Position numbers and translations under genes: made by a program
Shown here: piece by piece, positions 90 to 58,926 of the stretch
Numbering within the stretch: the first letter of the stretch is position 1
Layout: the number at the start of each line of letters is the position of its first letter
Origin: Clostridia bacterium
Lineage (GTDB): Bacteria > Bacillota > Clostridia > Christensenellales > CAG-138
Length of the DNA: 64,000 nucleotides
Assembly (NCBI GenBank): GCA_003246365.1
Contig: QKAN01000216.1
Span: forward strand, 1-64,000
Direction of reading: 5' to 3'
The notes under the pieces: model-generated
The model's input: the letters and a program-made list of their open reading frames with translations, nothing else
Told to the model about the DNA's origin: nothing
Databases searched by the model: none

Positions 90-1757
90 ATGGAAGAAGT
101 AAAACACTCGAAGAATTTCATCGAGGAGTTCATCGAAGAGGACATGCGCACAAAAGAGCCGCGCGTGCAGACCCGGTTTCCGCCCGAACCAAACGGTTAT
201 TTGCACATTGGTCACGCAAAAGCGCTCGCCATTGATTTCGGCATGGCCGAACAGTATGGCGGCATCTGCAACCTTCGCTATGACGACACGAACCCGTCTA
301 AAGAAGACGTGGAATATGTCGATGCGATTCAGGCAGATATCCAGTGGCTCGGGTTCCAGTGGAACGAAATTCTCTTCGGTTCTTCCTATTTTGACCAGTG
401 CTACGACCTCGCGGTCAAACTCATCAAAAAAGGCGTCGCGTATGTCGACGAGCTGACGAAAGAGGATATGCGCGCCTACCGCGGTACGCTGACGCAGCCG
501 GGCAAAAACAGCCCATACCGCGACCGTCCGGCGGAGGAAAGTCTCGATTTGTTTGCGCGTATGCGCGCGGGCGAGTTTGAAGACGGGGCGAAGACCCTGC
601 GCGCCAAAATCGACATGGCGTCCCCGAACATCAACATGCGCGACCCCGCGCTGTATCGCATCAAGCATGTGCGCCATCATCAGACGGGCGACAAATGGTG
701 CATCTATCCCATGTACGATTTTGCGCATCCGATTCAGGACGCCATCGAGGGCGTAACGCACTCGCTCTGCTCGCTGGAATACGAGGCGCACCGCCCGCTG
801 TACAACTGGGTGGTCGATCAGTGCGAATTTGATCCCAAACCGCGGCAGATCGAGTTTGCGCGGCTGAATATTACGGATACCATTATGAGCAAGCGTTATC
901 TGCGCAGGCTTGTGGAAGAAGGATATGTTTCCGGCTGGGACGATCCGCGTATGCCGACGCTCTGCGGCATGCGCAGGCGCGGTTTTACGGCGGCCGCAAT
1001 TCGCGATTTTCTGGAGCGCGTCGGCGTAGCAAAAGCGGATTCCGTTGTGGACTTTGCAATGCTGGAACACTGCGTACGCGAAGACCTCAACGAAAATGCT
1101 GCGAGGCGCATGGCGGTGCTCGATCCCGTTCTGGTGGAAATCGACAACTGGGACGAGGGAAAATACGAGGATGTTACGCTGGAAAACCACCCGAACCATC
1201 CCGAACTCGGTTCGCGCACGGTGCGTTTCGGCAAGCGCGCGTATATCGAACGGGACGACTTTGCGGAGGTTCCGCCGAGCAAGTTTTTCCGCCTCAAGCC
1301 GGACGGCGAAGTCCGCCTCAAAGGCGCGTATATCATTAAATGCGTCGGTCTGGAGAAAAACGAAGACGGCACGGTAACCAAGATTCACTGCACCTATGAC
1401 CCCGCAAGCCACAGCGGCGAAGACGCGCGCAAGGTGAAGGGTACGCTGCATTGGCTCAATGTGGACGACGCGGTTGCGGCGGAGTTCCGGCTGTATGACA
1501 CGCTGATGAAGAGCGAGAGCGCGGAGCAGGACGAAGAGGAAGAGGAAACCGCGGTCGAAAAAGACTTTGTCGACCGGCTCAATCCCGATTCGCTCACGAC
1601 GATGAAAGGGGTTGTCGAACCCGCGCTGGACGGCGTTCCGGAGGGCGAGCGGTATCAGTTTATGCGCGAAGGATACTTCTGCGCGGATCGCGACGGAAAG
1701 CCCGGCGCGCCGGTATTCAACCGCACGGTTGGTTTAAAAGACAGCTACAAAGCATAA
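90..1757 (+). CDS. glnS: Glutaminyl-tRNA synthetase
   Basis: 555 aa ORF; class I aaRS motif 'RFPPEPNGYLHIGHAKA' and 'MSKRYL' (KMSKS-like); GlnRS-type C-terminal domain. Confidence 0.95.
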   Translation: MEEVKHSKNFIEEFIEEDMRTKEPRVQTRFPPEPNGYLHIGHAKALAIDFGMAEQYGGICNLRYDDTNPSKEDVEYVDAIQADIQWLGFQWNEILFGSSYFDQCYDLAVKLIKKGVAYVDELTKEDMRAYRGTLTQPGKNSPYRDRPAEESLDLFARMRAGEFEDGAKTLRAKIDMASPNINMRDPALYRIKHVRHHQTGDKWCIYPMYDFAHPIQDAIEGVTHSLCSLEYEAHRPLYNWVVDQCEFDPKPRQIEFARLNITDTIMSKRYLRRLVEEGYVSGWDDPRMPTLCGMRRRGFTAAAIRDFLERVGVAKADSVVDFAMLEHCVREDLNENAARRMAVLDPVLVEIDNWDEGKYEDVTLENHPNHPELGSRTVRFGKRAYIERDDFAEVPPSKFFRLKPDGEVRLKGAYIIKCVGLEKNEDGTVTKIHCTYDPASHSGEDARKVKGTLHWLNVDDAVAAEFRLYDTLMKSESAEQDEEEEETAVEKDFVDRLNPDSLTTMKGVVEPALDGVPEGERYQFMREGYFCADRDGKPGAPVFNRTVGLKDSYKA

Positions 1758-1782
1758 TTCTTTTCTTTGTAAAGAAAAGAAT
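1757..1782. repeat. 26-bp perfect palindrome ATTCTTTTCTTT-GT-AAAGAAAAGAAT
   Basis: Arms are exact reverse complements; near-identical palindrome at 3376-3401. Confidence 0.8.
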
Positions 1783-1842
1783 CAAAAGAAACTTTTTACG
1801 CATCCGCTTCCCGAAAGGAAAACGGATAAAGGAGCGAAATTC

Positions 1843-3279
1843 ATGGTTCGAACCCGGTTTGCCCCGTCGCCGACGGGCTTTATGCACCTCGGTAACCTGC
1901 GCAGCGCGCTGTATACTTATCTATATGCCAAAAAGCACAACGGCAAGTTCATCCTCCGCATCGAGGACACCGACCAGAGCCGCTATGTTGAAGGCGCGGT
2001 AGATGTTATCTACAACACCCTCCGCGATATCGGCATGCTCTGGGACGAAGGCCCCGATGTCGGCGGCGATTACGGCCCCTATGTGCAGAGTGAGCGCAAG
2101 AATATGTACAGGCCATACGCCGAACAGCTCGTCAAGAGCGGCAAGGCGTATTACTGCTTCTGCACAAACGAAGAGCTTGACGCGCGGCGCGAGGAAGCCT
2201 CCGCAAAGGGCGAGGTCTGGAAATATGACAAGCATTGCCTGCATCTTTCGCCGGAGGAAGTGCAAAAGCGCATTGCGGCGGGAGAACCGCACGTAATCCG
2301 CCAGAATGTGCCGCTGACCGGCGAGGCCTCGTTTGACGACGTACTCTACGGACACATCGCCGTGGACTGCGCGGAGCTCGACGACATGGTGCTCATCAAA
2401 GCGGACGGCATGCCGACGTATAATTTTGCCAACGTAATCGACGACCATACCATGGCGATTACGCACGTAATGCGCGGCAACGAATACCTTGCGAGCACGC
2501 CGAAATACAACCTGCTCTATGAGGCGTTCGGCTGGGAAAAACCGGTCTATATCCATATGACGCCGATCATGCGCGACGCGAACCATAAACTCAGCAAGCG
2601 CGACGGCGACGCGTATTACGAAGATTATCTGAAAAAAGGCTATCTCAAGGAAGCGATCATTAACTATGTCGCGCTCTTGGGTTGGAACCCCGGCGACGAG
2701 CGGGAGTTTTTCACGCTAGACGAGCTGAAAGAAGCGTTTGACGTAACCGGCATGTCCAAATCCCCCGCAATTTTCGACGTGAACAAGCTCACCTGGATGA
2801 ACGCGGAATATGTCCGCCGGCTCACGCCGGAGGAATTTACGCGCCATGCCATGCCGTATTACGAGCAGGCGGGCGTTGGACAGATGGATAAAGACATTCT
2901 CTGCCGCATTTTGCAGCCGCGCACGGAGATTTTTACCCAGATCCCCGAAGTGGTGGATTTTCTCGTCACGCTACCGGAATACGACGCGGAACTCTTTACC
3001 AACAAAAAGAGCAAGACGGATTCTGTTGTTTCCGCAGAGGTGCTGGATTTCGTCATCCCCGCGCTGGAAGCGCTGCCCGAATGGACGGAGAGCGCGCTGC
3101 ATGAAACGCTGCTCGGCATGGCGGAGGCGCGCGGCATGAAAAACGGAACGTTGCTCTGGCCGGTGCGCATTTCGCTGGCGGGTAAGATGGTTACCCCTGG
3201 CGGCGCAATCGAGATTGCATCCCTTCTTGGCAGAGAAGAGTCTCTCAGAAGATTGAAGTTTGGCAGAAGCAAACTATAA
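1843..3279 (+). CDS. gltX: Glutamyl-tRNA synthetase
   Basis: 478 aa; 'RFAPSPTGFMHLGNLRSALYTYLYAKK' HIGH-type motif, 'KLSKRDGD' KMSKS-type motif. Confidence 0.95.
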   Translation: MVRTRFAPSPTGFMHLGNLRSALYTYLYAKKHNGKFILRIEDTDQSRYVEGAVDVIYNTLRDIGMLWDEGPDVGGDYGPYVQSERKNMYRPYAEQLVKSGKAYYCFCTNEELDARREEASAKGEVWKYDKHCLHLSPEEVQKRIAAGEPHVIRQNVPLTGEASFDDVLYGHIAVDCAELDDMVLIKADGMPTYNFANVIDDHTMAITHVMRGNEYLASTPKYNLLYEAFGWEKPVYIHMTPIMRDANHKLSKRDGDAYYEDYLKKGYLKEAIINYVALLGWNPGDEREFFTLDELKEAFDVTGMSKSPAIFDVNKLTWMNAEYVRRLTPEEFTRHAMPYYEQAGVGQMDKDILCRILQPRTEIFTQIPEVVDFLVTLPEYDAELFTNKKSKTDSVVSAEVLDFVIPALEALPEWTESALHETLLGMAEARGMKNGTLLWPVRISLAGKMVTPGGAIEIASLLGREESLRRLKFGRSKL

Positions 3280-4510: not shown

Positions 4511-4553
4511 ATTGCGTAAATAAATCAAAAGCAAACCTCATAACGAAACCAGC

Positions 4554-4583
4554 CAGCCGCGCGAACACTCGCGCGGCTGTTTT
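4554..4583 (+). terminator. Intrinsic terminator after ychF
   Basis: CAGCCGCGCGA-ACAC-TCGCGCGGCTG followed by TTTT. Confidence 0.75.
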
Positions 4584-4725
4584 GTATCGTTTTGCAAGCG
4601 GGTATGCCGTATTTGCATAGGTCAAAAACACGCAGAATGATTGACAAAATACAGTATCAGTAATAAAATATCGATAATAAATAATCGAAATGATGAACTG
4701 GCAAAATCATGTGGAGGATGAACGA

Positions 4726-6710: not shown

Positions 6711-7875
6711 TCTCTGCGCCGACATCGGGTATATCAGCCTGAACCACGCGGGCGAACAGCTCTGCGGGGATCATGTTGAAGTTGCCGGACAGGACGAATC
6801 TTCGACGGTGATCGTGCTTGCGGACGGCCTCGGTAGCGGGGTAAAAGCGAATATCCTCTCGACGCTGACCGCAAGAATTCTTTCCACAATGCTGGCCGCG
6901 GGGTTAAAGATTGAGGACTGTGTGGAAACCGTTGCGGCGACGCTGCCGGTCTGCGCAATTCGCGGCATCGCGTATTCCACGTTTACGATACTGCGCCTCG
7001 TCAACAACGAGCGCGCGGAGATCATTCAATATGACAATCCGTCCGTCATTCTCCTGCGGGATGGAAAAAACGTGGAACTGCCTGCCATCATGCAGGACAT
7101 CGGCGGCAAACGGATTTTCCGTTCGGACGTGATGCTGAAGGAAAACGACGTATTCATCGCCATGAGCGACGGTGTAGAGCACGCGGGCGTCGGCGGAGTA
7201 TATAACTTCGGCTGGCGGCGTGAGGACATCGTACGGTATATGGAAACCCTCTGGCATGTCGGTTTTACCGCAAAAACGCTCGCGACAATCCTTCTGGAAG
7301 AGACGAACCGGCTCTACGAAGGGAATCCCGGAGACGATGCAACGGTTTGCGTCGTGCGCATCCGCCCAAGGGTGCCGATGAACCTGCTGTGCGGTCCGCC
7401 GTCCAGTCGGGACGACAACAACAAGATGATGTCGCTCTTTTTCGGCAAAGAGGGAAAGCATATCGTCTGCGGGGGCACGACTTCGTCCATCGCCGCGCAA
7501 TATCTCAAGCAGCCGCTGATTGCGGATCTGGATTTTCCCGACCCGGACATTCCGCCGACGGCGACCGTAGCGGGGGTGGACCTCGTGACCGAGGGCGTGA
7601 TTACGATTAACCGCGTTTTGGAGTATGCAAAGAACTATCTGGAAGACAACAGCGATTATGAACGCTGGAGTCAGGGACGGGACGGTGCATCCCGTATTGC
7701 GCGGCTGTTGTTTGAGGAAGCGACGGATATCAACTTTTTTGTCGGCTGCGCGGTGAACCCGGCGCACCAGAACCCCGAACTGCCGATCAACTTTAACCTG
7801 AAAATGCAGCTGGTGGAGCAGCTTTCGGACTGCCTGACGAAGATGGGCAAGCGCATCAAAACGAGTTTTTTTTAA
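6694..7875 (+). CDS. SpoIIE/PP2C-family serine phosphatase
   Basis: 'VIVLADGLGSGVKANILS', 'AMSDGVEHAG', 'DDATVCVVRI' PP2C-type metal motifs; overlaps upstream hydrogenase ORF by 17 nt. Confidence 0.8.
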   Translation: MRKTNNLCADIGYISLNHAGEQLCGDHVEVAGQDESSTVIVLADGLGSGVKANILSTLTARILSTMLAAGLKIEDCVETVAATLPVCAIRGIAYSTFTILRLVNNERAEIIQYDNPSVILLRDGKNVELPAIMQDIGGKRIFRSDVMLKENDVFIAMSDGVEHAGVGGVYNFGWRREDIVRYMETLWHVGFTAKTLATILLEETNRLYEGNPGDDATVCVVRIRPRVPMNLLCGPPSSRDDNNKMMSLFFGKEGKHIVCGGTTSSIAAQYLKQPLIADLDFPDPDIPPTATVAGVDLVTEGVITINRVLEYAKNYLEDNSDYERWSQGRDGASRIARLLFEEATDINFFVGCAVNPAHQNPELPINFNLKMQLVEQLSDCLTKMGKRIKTSFF

Positions 7876-54048: not shown

Positions 54049-54771
54049 ATGCGTCAAAAAATCCGCAGAATCCTGCTATATGTTTCCCTGTTTCTTTTCC
54101 CGATTACAATGAACTTTTTCTCCCCGTATGTTTCCATCGACGGCGCGTTTGCGGGGGTGCTTTCCGGCAGCGCGATGATGTTTGTGTTGCTCTTTCTGTC
54201 CGGCATTTTCTTCGGACGCGCATGGTGCGGCTGGCTTTGCCCGGCGGGTGGGCTGGCGGAGGTTGCGCAAACGGTGAATCCGAAACCGGCGAACGCGAAA
54301 ACGCTGCGCATCGTTCGCTACTGCATTTTTGCGGTGTGGTTCGGTGTGCTGACAACGGGGTTTATTCTTGCTGGTGGGATAAAGGGACTTGATCCTTTGC
54401 GCATGACGGAACACTATATCTCTGTGGATGAACCAGTAAAATACATCATCTATTACTTTGTGTTAGGATTGTTCTTTATTCTGGACCTTGCGCTCGGTCG
54501 GCGCGGCGCTTGCCACGGCGTATGCTGGATGAGCCCGTTCCTAACGGCGGGCATGGCGGTTGGGCGCGTGCTGCATCTGCCGCAAATGCGGATCAAAGCA
54601 AAGCTGGAAGCGTGCATCGACTGTAAAAAGTGCAACAATAAATGCCCGATGAGCATCGACGTCAACGCCGCGGTGAAAACGGGCAGCGTAAAGAGTTTCG
54701 ATTGCATCCTCTGCGGGGAATGCGTGGATGTTTGCCCGAAGAATGTTCTATCCTACCGGAAACCAAAATAA
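54049..54771 (+). CDS. NapH-like 4Fe-4S membrane ferredoxin
   Basis: 'GRAWCGWLCPAGGL' and two C-terminal 'CxxCxxCxxxCP' clusters. Confidence 0.85.
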   Translation: MRQKIRRILLYVSLFLFPITMNFFSPYVSIDGAFAGVLSGSAMMFVLLFLSGIFFGRAWCGWLCPAGGLAEVAQTVNPKPANAKTLRIVRYCIFAVWFGVLTTGFILAGGIKGLDPLRMTEHYISVDEPVKYIIYYFVLGLFFILDLALGRRGACHGVCWMSPFLTAGMAVGRVLHLPQMRIKAKLEACIDCKKCNNKCPMSIDVNAAVKTGSVKSFDCILCGECVDVCPKNVLSYRKPK

Positions 54772-54818
54772 CGAACGGACAACCTGCAAAGCCGGATGGT
54801 ATCGCATCCGGCTTTTCT
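54669..54818. repeat. Direct repeat copy 1 (3' end of NapH-like gene plus terminator)
   Basis: 150 bp aligning without gaps to 57181-57330, 7 mismatches by eye. Confidence 0.93.
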
Positions 54819-54938
54819 TTTATTTATTAAGCACGATGATGGACTTCGTTAAAATTTTAAAGTAAGATAAATTAATAACAAAAGAATCCTGTTTTCAACA
54901 GTTTAAACTCTTATTGTGCGTTACTAGCGGGAGGTTTT

Positions 54939-57143
54939 ATGGGGATTGTCTACTTTAAGCTTGAGAATTGTTATGGAATAAAATCTTTTCAATACACATT
55001 TAATTTTAATGCAAATAAAAAGGCTCATATTATATATGCTCCCAATGGCACTATGAAAACTTCATTTGCACGAACTCTACAAGATATATGTGACAATCGG
55101 ATTACAACAGACGCTTTTTTTCCTGAACGTAAGACTACTAGAATTGTCAAGCACGACAATCAAGATGGAATTGATTTTGAAGCATCAGATATACTAGTTG
55201 TAGCACCATATCGAGGTGATTACAAATCGGAACGTATGAGTTTACTGTTGGCAAACCAAAGCCTAAAAAACGAATATGATTCGATTCATAATGAGATAGA
55301 CAGTAAGATGGATGCTGTGAAAAGAAATCTTTCGACAATGTCAGGGAAAAAAGATGCAATAAGCATTTTAGTTAAAGATTTTGGTGAAGAACCAATAAAC
55401 TCTTACGAGCTATTAAGCCGTATCTCTGATGATATTGAATTGAAAGCACAAGCACAATTCGAAAATATTTCATATGGGAAATTATTCACTCCTGATGCAG
55501 AGGACGCTTTAAAACGCCCTGAGTTACTAGATGAATTAACTTCATATGTTGTGCAATATAACAAATTGTTATCTAATTCTGTAGTCTTTCAATCAAAATT
55601 TGATCATTATAATGCCAAGGAAATATCAGGCGATTTAGCTAAGTCTGGATTTTTTCAGGCAAACCATAAAGTCCTTTTAAATGGCGAAAGCGTTGGACGA
55701 GACGAAAAAGAGTTTAGGGAGATTATCGATGAAGAAAAACGGCGGATTATTGAAGTTGGTATGGCGGAAAAATTTGCCAAATTAGATACGATTTTAGATA
55801 AAAAAATAGGCACACGAGATTTCAGAGCGTTTATAAGTCAGAATAAGTCCATTATACCTGAGTTAGCTGATGTTCAAGAGTTTAAGAAAAAAATTTGGGT
55901 GTCTTATTTGCTTTCAAAGGAAGCAGATTTTATTGAAGCAGTATTGTGCTATAAAAGAAGTCGCGAACGAATTTCGGAAATAATTAATGAAGCTGCGAAT
56001 CAAACATCCATTTGGGAAGAGATTGTAAATGAGTTCAACAATAGATTTTTAGATTTACCCTATTCGTTAAAGATTGGAAACAAAGAAGATGTTGTATTGA
56101 ATCAAAAAGCACCAGTTGTCATATTTCATTTTAAGAGTGATAGAGCTGAAAAAGAAGTAGAACAAAAATTATTGCTCGAATTTTTAAGTGATGGTGAAAA
56201 AAGAGCCCTTTATTTATTGAATATTATTTTTGAAATAAAAGCGCATCAAATAACTAATCGACATCCATTAATAGTATTTGATGATATTGCTGATTCATTT
56301 GATTATAAAAATAAATACGCTATTATCGAGTACTTGATTGATATTATAGAAAGCCAGTTTTTTTCTCCAATAATCCTTTCGCATAATTTTGATTTTTATC
56401 GGACATTAGCTTGCAGGGCAGGGCTTAAATCATCTTCATGGTTCGCTGAGAAAACGGAGAGAGAAATTTCTATCGAGAAGGGTGAATACTTTGAAGATGT
56501 ATTTGAACATTGGAAAGAAGAGGTTTATAAAAAAGATGCTATTCTTGTTGCTTCTATCGCATTTCTAAGAAATATTGAGCAGTATCAAAATGGCAAAGAA
56601 TCAATATCTTATCAACAACTAACCGCTTTACTACACTACAAGAAGAATCTAGTGCATCCTGTAATATCAACAGAATGTTATCTCATGGACGATTTTTGTG
56701 ATCTAATAATTGAAAAATGGGGATTAAAAAGAGAGCTAATCACATATGATAGAACGATTTCAGTATTTGAGTTTATTATTAAATGCGCTCGCGATATTTC
56801 AAATAATCCGCAATCTTCTTTTTGCTTAGAGGAGAAAGTAGTATTAGCTATTGCATGTAGATTAATAGCAGAGAAATATATGATTAATCGTATTGCAGAT
56901 GCATCAAAGACCGAGGCAATAAAGAAAAATCAAACTAGAGCTTTAAAAAATCTTATTACGTTTAATCGTGCTGATCCGCAGGATGTTCAACGAGAAGAGA
57001 TAATTAACCGAGTACTAATAATATCCTCAGAAAACATACATATAAATGCATTTATGTATGAACCTCTAGTAGACATAGCTCTTTCAGAAATAAAAGCATT
57101 GTTTAATTTAGTCTCATCTCCATTGTTATCGGATGCAGTATAG
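54939..57143 (+). CDS. ABC/SMC-type AAA ATPase (candidate solo defence protein)
   Basis: 734 aa, AT-rich; Walker A-like 'IYAPNGTMKTSFA', signature-like 'LSDGEKRALYLLNIIFEI', Walker B 'HPLIVFDDIADSFD', His switch 'PIILSHNFDFYR'. Confidence 0.8.
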   Translation: MGIVYFKLENCYGIKSFQYTFNFNANKKAHIIYAPNGTMKTSFARTLQDICDNRITTDAFFPERKTTRIVKHDNQDGIDFEASDILVVAPYRGDYKSERMSLLLANQSLKNEYDSIHNEIDSKMDAVKRNLSTMSGKKDAISILVKDFGEEPINSYELLSRISDDIELKAQAQFENISYGKLFTPDAEDALKRPELLDELTSYVVQYNKLLSNSVVFQSKFDHYNAKEISGDLAKSGFFQANHKVLLNGESVGRDEKEFREIIDEEKRRIIEVGMAEKFAKLDTILDKKIGTRDFRAFISQNKSIIPELADVQEFKKKIWVSYLLSKEADFIEAVLCYKRSRERISEIINEAANQTSIWEEIVNEFNNRFLDLPYSLKIGNKEDVVLNQKAPVVIFHFKSDRAEKEVEQKLLLEFLSDGEKRALYLLNIIFEIKAHQITNRHPLIVFDDIADSFDYKNKYAIIEYLIDIIESQFFSPIILSHNFDFYRTLACRAGLKSSSWFAEKTEREISIEKGEYFEDVFEHWKEEVYKKDAILVASIAFLRNIEQYQNGKESISYQQLTALLHYKKNLVHPVISTECYLMDDFCDLIIEKWGLKRELITYDRTISVFEFIIKCARDISNNPQSSFCLEEKVVLAIACRLIAEKYMINRIADASKTEAIKKNQTRALKNLITFNRADPQDVQREEIINRVLIISSENIHINAFMYEPLVDIALSEIKALFNLVSSPLLSDAV

Positions 57144-57180
57144 GTTTTGGATTATTGCATGAATATTATTCAGCACAAAT

Positions 57181-57423: not shown

Positions 57424-58926
57424 ATGAAACGCCGTTTGTTTTCTTCTTTACTGGTTATCATTCTACTCGCTTTTACTTTTCCGCAGGTTGCCCGCGCGGA
57501 AGGGGCGGATACACCCGTTCTAATCAAGGACGCGGCTGGCTTGATTGCGATTGCGGAGCATCCGGAAGGTGACTACATCCTCGGCGCGAACATCGATCTG
57601 TCCGGTGTAAACTGGATGCCGTTTGCGTTTTCCGGAACGCTCGACGGCGCGGGTTTTACGGTTTACAATCTCTCAATCACGCAAACCTGCGAAGAGACGC
57701 GCATTACCTACGACGGGCGGCATGGCGGGTATCATACGATTTTTGCCGCGCTGTTTTCCACCGTAAGCGGCAGCGTGAAAAACCTGAATCTGCTGAATGA
57801 AACCATCGATCTGACGACGGACCAACCGTGCTTTATCGCGGGTATTGCCGGATATCTGCTCGGCGGCGAACTGATCAACTGCTCCGTCAGCGGGCGGATG
57901 AAGATTGTTTCCACAGCTCCACAGTGCGGCGCTGGCGGAATTGCCGGGTTCGGACACGGACGGATAGAAGGCTGCACGGTGGATGCGGAAATCACGATCT
58001 GTGCGGTCAATCCAGATCGGTATTGCGAAGAATATCTTGGCGGTATTCTTTCAAACGGTTATGCGGATGTGATTGACTGTTTGGTAAAACTGGCAGGGTA
58101 TACCTCCGTGCGCGGATATGTGCACAACGGAGGGCTTGTTGGCTTAAGCGACGTAAACCCGGAGAACAAACGGTATTTCGGGCATGTGCGCGGCTGCAGT
58201 GTGGACGCGAAAATCTCGTTTTTTGAAGATGTTGCGGATCGCAGAGCCTATTGCAGCGCGTATATTGGCGAAATTCAGAACGACGATCTGGTTGTCTCCG
58301 CCAATGAAACAGTGCGATTTGTGAGTTTGGAGAGCAAGGACTTTACACGCATGCTCCTGCCGGACATGGATCAAAACCCCGTTTATAACGCGGTTGTGAC
58401 TCCGCCGAAATGCACCGCGTTTGGCTACACCACCTATACGAACCCGGATACGGGATACTCTTATACGGACGATTACACTGCGCCTGCGCATACACCGGGA
58501 GAATGGCAGGTGGTGACACCGGCAAGCTATACGGGCGAAGGCACGCAGCGACAGTATTGCGCCGAGTGCGGCGTATTACTGGCGGAGGAAACGCTTCCAA
58601 AGCTGATTCCATCCGTTTCGTGCGAACTGAGTGAAAGCAAAGTGGAAATGACGTATCAAGATTCGCTTCAATTGATAGCGACGGTGTTGCCGATTGACGC
58701 AACAAACGGAAACGTCACATGGATGAGTTCGGACGAATCCGTTGCTACCGTGAGCAACGACGGGCTGGTGACAGCACTTGGCAAAGGCAAAACCGCGATC
58801 TACTGTAAAACGGACGACGGGTTTGCCTCCGCGGCTTGCGAGGTGGAGGTTCGCTTTACGTTTGGTCAGTGGTTGACGCGCTATATTCTGTTCGGCTGGA
58901 TATGGAGCGCGGGCATCAACGGATAA
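57424..58926 (+). CDS. Secreted protein with GLUG-like repeats and bacterial Ig-like (Big_2) domain
   Basis: Signal peptide; 'VTWMSSDESVATVSNDGLVTALGKGKTAIYCKTDDG' Big_2 motif. Confidence 0.8.
   Translation: MKRRLFSSLLVIILLAFTFPQVARAEGADTPVLIKDAAGLIAIAEHPEGDYILGANIDLSGVNWMPFAFSGTLDGAGFTVYNLSITQTCEETRITYDGRHGGYHTIFAALFSTVSGSVKNLNLLNETIDLTTDQPCFIAGIAGYLLGGELINCSVSGRMKIVSTAPQCGAGGIAGFGHGRIEGCTVDAEITICAVNPDRYCEEYLGGILSNGYADVIDCLVKLAGYTSVRGYVHNGGLVGLSDVNPENKRYFGHVRGCSVDAKISFFEDVADRRAYCSAYIGEIQNDDLVVSANETVRFVSLESKDFTRMLLPDMDQNPVYNAVVTPPKCTAFGYTTYTNPDTGYSYTDDYTAPAHTPGEWQVVTPASYTGEGTQRQYCAECGVLLAEETLPKLIPSVSCELSESKVEMTYQDSLQLIATVLPIDATNGNVTWMSSDESVATVSNDGLVTALGKGKTAIYCKTDDGFASAACEVEVRFTFGQWLTRYILFGWIWSAGING

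Follow-up and report, generated by a model that had tools for sequence, protein, structure and literature searches.

Our analysis of the window, a 64,000-nucleotide stretch of the Clostridia contig QKAN01000216.1, revealed a member of a widespread gene family, PDC-S46, that very probably has a role in anti-phage defence. As judged by comparison of homologues and their loci, the family has conserved ATPase motifs and a conserved, effector-like C-terminal domain, is mobile, and occurs adjacent to defence genes. We give roughly even chances to the full reading, in which the window gene was acquired by horizontal transfer and acts as a single-protein defence against phages: its ATPase would gate an effector, most likely a RloC/PrrC-like ribonuclease, and infection would be aborted. 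The trigger, the RNase chemistry and the abortive outcome are the parts of this reading that we infer.

The AT-rich, one-ORF island described in the initial annotation is real: the 734-aa ORF (S46 gene, Table 1) has a GC content of 0.324 compared to 0.529 in the remaining window, 7.1 s.d. under 284 equal-sized windows. Comparison with its sister allele (pN 0.22, pS 0.80) indicates that S46 is under purifying selection. The protein matched the PADLOC family PDC-S46 (PDLC05023), a single-gene candidate, over its full length and without difference in layout (residues 2-726 on positions 2-716 of 719; E 5.8e-217, 720.7 bits), and this was its one strong annotated match; a PADLOC check had been proposed in the initial annotation. 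The gene is not undescribed, as had been claimed, because PADLOC already lists its family. Within PDC-S46 the window protein stands out as divergent, with about 40% identity to its nearest named homologue. The unnamed family phrog_38705 was matched as well (E 1.8e-140), Pfam and NCBIfam gave weak SMC_N/RecF similarity or nothing, and a sequence search of the PDB with S46 gave no match. PDCs are mostly single-gene candidates derived from 'guilt by embedding', the majority of them unvalidated (PMC12988326), and our literature search, with bioRxiv outside its scope, found no functional or wet-lab study on PDC-S46. PDC-S46 is a widespread, catalogued family to which no mechanism has been assigned so far.

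Table 1. Features of the S46 island and its insertion site (positions in the window).
Feature	Position	Strand	Remarks
NapH-like ferredoxin/membrane protein gene, 240 aa	54049..54771	+	upstream of island
Left copy of 155-bp direct repeat	54669..54823	+	3' end and terminator of intact ferredoxin gene
S46 gene, 734-aa ABC/SMC-like ATPase with C-terminal effector-like domain	54939..57143	+	ATG start; PADLOC PDC-S46 and phrog_38705 matches
Walker A APNGTMKTS, residues 34-42	55038..55064	+	K40 in 69/69 homologues having the column
ABC signature LSDGEKRA, residues 416-423	56184..56207	+	G419, E420 in 70/70
Walker B and D-loop start VFDDIADS, residues 446-453	56274..56297	+	D448, D449 in 70/70
His switch LSHNFD, residues 480-485	56376..56393	+	H482 in 70/70
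C-terminal all-helical domain, residues 512-734	56472..57140	+	AlphaFold on domain alone: pLDDT 89.5, pTM 0.89
R544-x3-Q548 ... H566	56568..56636	+	in register with RloC R-x3-E (hhalign, five RloC references); H566 possible third residue
E631-x-K633 ... R641-x3-E645	56829..56873	+	invariant block; R641, E645 also kept in related ATPase L110
H701-x-N703-x-F-M-x-E708-P709-x2-D712	57039..57074	+	invariant block (homologue alignment)
Right copy of direct repeat, 94% identity	57181..57335	+	displaced 3' fragment of ferredoxin gene and terminator
Ig-like/GLUG surface protein gene	57424..58926	+	downstream neighbour; adjoins ferredoxin gene in empty-site congeners

The ATPase motifs named in the initial annotation (P-loop, LSDGEKRA, VFDDIADS and LSHNFD) were all found and are conserved among homologues. 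An AlphaFold model of the whole protein, with 70 homologues in the alignment, reached a pLDDT of 87.6; in Foldseek it matched SMC/Rad50/RecF heads and the ATPases of retron I-A/Ec83 and type II Lamassu, the ATPase head alone being matched. The motifs and the matches to SMC/Rad50 heads thus bear out an ABC/SMC-like ATPase. The middle part, announced as a long coil, is helical in the model but is built from short to medium helices in series, not from a single long coiled coil. The retron I-A/Ec83 ATPase and Lamassu LmuB, which have SMC-like defence ATPase heads like that of S46, work with separate effector proteins, whereas in S46 a putative effector is fused to the ATPase.

An effector had been suspected in the region after the His switch, and both the predicted fold and the conservation of this region point to a putative effector domain. 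AlphaFold and Foldseek, proposed as a check for this part, returned a confident all-helical fold and no match to PrrC, RloC or HEPN proteins; searched alone against the PDB and BFVD viral models, the domain had no significant match, and no nuclease or HEPN was found. Specifically, no HEPN helical fold was matched at E <= 0.001 (7bxo, a HEPN-type toxin-antitoxin entry, came up only at E 4.9), and none of the invariant residues in 70 homologues form an R and H pair 4-6 residues apart as in the HEPN Rx4-6H motif. The domain has 17 invariant residues among the 70 homologues. R544 and H566 occur in all 70. Position 548 is occupied by E in 65 of them, by D in three and by Q in two; both the window protein and the sister allele have Q. 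A second invariant set, E631/K633/R641/E645/Q665/H701/N703/E708/D712, is complete in 70/70 including the window protein.

One scan of species-representative genomes yielded 387 relatives with up to 39% identity, of which 80 were kept; the family comes from about 19 phyla. In the family tree (FastTree, with the window protein on a long branch) phylum labels cluster, yet Pseudomonadota alone require eight changes on well-supported branches. The bin to which the window belongs was the sole carrier among 101 relatives searched, the gene being absent from the 100 others. In all 70 loci compared, the GC content of S46 is under that of its flanks. The gene was found on 25 plasmids (nine predicted conjugative), in eight IMG/VR viral contigs and in one fecal phage contig; three plasmids were opened, and transfer or toxin-antitoxin genes were seen beside S46 on conjugative ones. 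In E. coli, a full copy is present in 6 of 5426 complete genomes and another 39 genomes gave partial matches only, which suggests that loss of the gene may be frequent. The one partial-match genome opened, APEC O2-211, has a 369-bp S46 remnant beside IS1 in the same operon position (L163, 6001-6378). With this patchy spread over phyla and its carriage by plasmid and viral sequences, the S46 family is, by its sequence record, mobile.

We also inspected the neighbourhoods of homologues, another check that had been proposed, and found restriction-modification (RM) and Hma-like defence genes beside S46. In PADLOC scans RM proteins were the commonest immediate neighbours, mainly of type I and III. 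Type I or III RM genes were present in at least 17 of 79 homologous loci, and in 12 of these they are no more than 100 bp away from S46; this count was made by single-query phmmer in S46 loci alone and is a lower bound. The E. coli homologue (WP_096983205.1) follows a DEAD-box helicase gene at a distance of 32 bp in all three genomes opened, and a scan of the neighbours in one of these loci (L161) found the helicase to be HmaA-like and a gene further upstream HmaB-like. Since relatives have RM or Hma-like neighbours, S46 is not always solo. The initial claim that it would act alone has to be qualified: the window copy has no partner gene beside it, and visual inspection of the ORFs at 49-64 kb showed no RM gene, but relatives often adjoin type I/III RM genes or sit in a Hma-like operon. 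Gene neighbourhoods indicate that the S46 family is defence-linked, and the E. coli homologue in its Hma-like operon is directly assayable.

The island is bracketed by a 155-bp direct repeat that the initial annotation had missed, and is therefore an insertion. Where the copies differ in two amino acids (Y/F, D/N), congeners have the version of the right copy, whereas at other sites they match the left one. None of seven congeners has an S46 gene at all. In three of them (G003, G005, G006) the site is empty, with the Ig/GLUG gene directly after ferredoxin; G002 has a gene for a 503-aa multi-span membrane protein there (L099, 2348-3856; 41.5% GC, no Pfam match), and G007 a 348-aa TIR-like gene (L097, 672-1718) with weak TIR/deoxyribosyltransferase matches. 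On L097 the TIR-like gene is followed by a truncated GLUG gene, a second ferredoxin 3'-end copy (about 2100-2215) and an alcohol dehydrogenase gene. A further S46 allele is found in the window's own bin (87% complete, 6.5% contamination), where contig C206 contains a sister-species ferredoxin end and then the apparent start of an S46 gene, and contig C13 an S46 gene (64% identical) with the same Ig/GLUG and GGDEF genes downstream. The two contigs probably join and probably come from a sister species; at this site the terminator alone is repeated. Given the empty sites and the alleles with S46, TIR-like and membrane-protein genes, we regard it as a hotspot of insertion where cargo of at least three kinds is found; its alleles show turnover of single defence genes. 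The lateral acquisition proposed in the initial annotation is supported by the patchy spread, the mobility, the low GC content and the insertion site that is empty in congeners.

A similar arrangement was identified in a Bacteroidetes MAG (L016), where S46 lies downstream of a type III methylase-like gene and the 3' end of the upstream gene is present in duplicate, once on either side of S46 (50 bp, 98%; 4545-4594 and 6829-6878). Across the family, flanking repeats were detected in 5 of 63 S46 loci and 2 of 300 control intervals. As a family-wide rule they were rejected: the repeats of L044, L053 and L073 are of another sort, and the 3'-end duplication is therefore confined to the window and L016. 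Comparison of these two loci suggests that both genes were inserted in a shared manner, with no recombinase carried by the island, and no recombinase gene was found inside the island of the window. The duplication might have arisen by single-crossover integration of a circle carrying the S46 gene and the 3' end of its target, or alternatively through a recombinase acting in trans.

In the reading that we favour, the N-terminal and middle parts would form a SMC/Rad50-like ABC ATPase head, which probably dimerises on ATP and responds either to the DNA of the phage or to its interference with restriction or DNA metabolism. The C-terminal domain would then be released by ATP turnover; this domain most likely would cut tRNA or other RNA as a RloC/PrrC-like metal-independent ribonuclease, and RNA cutting would stop translation and abort the infection.

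The resemblance to PrrC and RloC that was noted initially is supported by profile alignment and by the same order of ATPase and effector. Like S46, RloC (AAA_13/PF13166; PDC-S06) has an ABC ATPase split by a helical insert, a His switch and a C-terminal effector starting with R-x3-E, and S46 aligned to profiles of 19 RloC-like proteins with E values of about 1e-17 to 1e-18 over 549-581 columns. The initial statement that the C-terminal region has no known nuclease motif holds in so far as Foldseek found no known nuclease fold, but R544-x3-(E/Q)548 falls on the catalytic R-x3-E of RloC with all five references in hhalign. PrrC shares the ATPase-nuclease order, and some S46 homologues share its adjacency to type I RM genes. 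Together with weak PDC-S06 (RloC-like) matches of the E. coli and Pseudomonas homologues, these likenesses could place S46 among the RloC or PrrC anticodon nucleases proper, which we nevertheless consider quite unlikely. Any CxxC, as in the zinc hook, occurs in only 3 of 77 S46 proteins compared to 20 of 20 RloC-like proteins. The window protein matched neither the PADLOC PrrC model nor, at E <= 1, PF13166, for which the sister allele scored 27.2 bits, under the cut-off of 36. PrrC is also much shorter (PADLOC model of 372 positions), and the window copy has no adjoining RM gene. The triad R-x3-E-x36-52-H is essential for RloC (PMC2610378), whereas R544-x3-(E/Q)548 is separated from H566 by X17 and the window lineage has Q at the catalytic Glu; a second R-x3-E..H candidate is R641-x3-E645-x55-H701. 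S46 moreover has an extra domain of about 165 residues past H566, with R641, E645, H701, N703 and D712 invariant and no reliable RloC counterpart, and therefore the active site may sit there and the chemistry may differ. The C-terminal domain profile alone did not find RloC. Like Q548, the X17 spacing and the residues past H566, this also weighs against the ribonuclease step of the reading that we favour. A sequence search of the PDB with one RloC query gave no RloC-like structure, so that the missing structural match is weak evidence against RloC likeness.

It is a real possibility that S46 is a defence ATPase whose C-terminal effector has another chemistry, such as a nuclease of new fold or an enzyme that modifies nucleotides, based on the second invariant set. 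The confident all-helical model without a PDB or BFVD match would fit, as would the completeness of this set in the window protein, in which E548 is not kept; the RloC alignment reaching R544-x3-E548 with every reference tried speaks for the ribonuclease. R641-E645 and N703/P709/D712 also recur in L110 (congener G003, 892-3108), a 738-aa AAA_13-like ATPase that matches PF13166, is about 20% identical to S46 and is not PDC-S46. Shared residues are R544, LT..H566, R641-x3-E645, N703, P709 and D712, and L110 is a possible link between S46 and RloC-like families by these residues. A housekeeping RecF/RecN/SMC-type repair or chromosome protein, to which the structural match of the head and weak similarity to SMC_N (22.6 bits against a cut-off of 40) and to RecF (27.9 bits against 172) might point, is very improbable and was rejected: these family models score under cut-off, vertical conservation is absent, the gene is patchy among the 101 relatives searched and missing from empty sites in congeners, and plasmid and phage carriage and RM adjacency add to this. 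Cargo with another benefit, such as plasmid competition or selfish maintenance, would agree with the position beside transfer or toxin-antitoxin genes on conjugative plasmids; it is quite unlikely in view of the recurrent operonic placement directly by RM or Hma-like genes. A combined proposal is less probable but still has some weight: the C-terminal domain would represent a new effector fold, be it an RNase or another type, under control of the SMC-like ATPase, and S46 genes could spread as one-gene cassettes that insert behind genes and leave a 3'-end copy at the distal end, the arrangement seen both in the window and in the unrelated Bacteroidetes locus.

Residues R544, E548 and H566 on the one hand and R641, E645 and H701 on the other are specific candidates for the active site. 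If the C-terminal domain is indeed an RNase that lacks both the zinc hook and the HEPN motif, the class of ATPase-nucleases would be widened. Elsewhere in the window's bin, contig C93 encodes a RloC-like protein (L105, 1411-3621; PDC-S06, E 8.8e-236).
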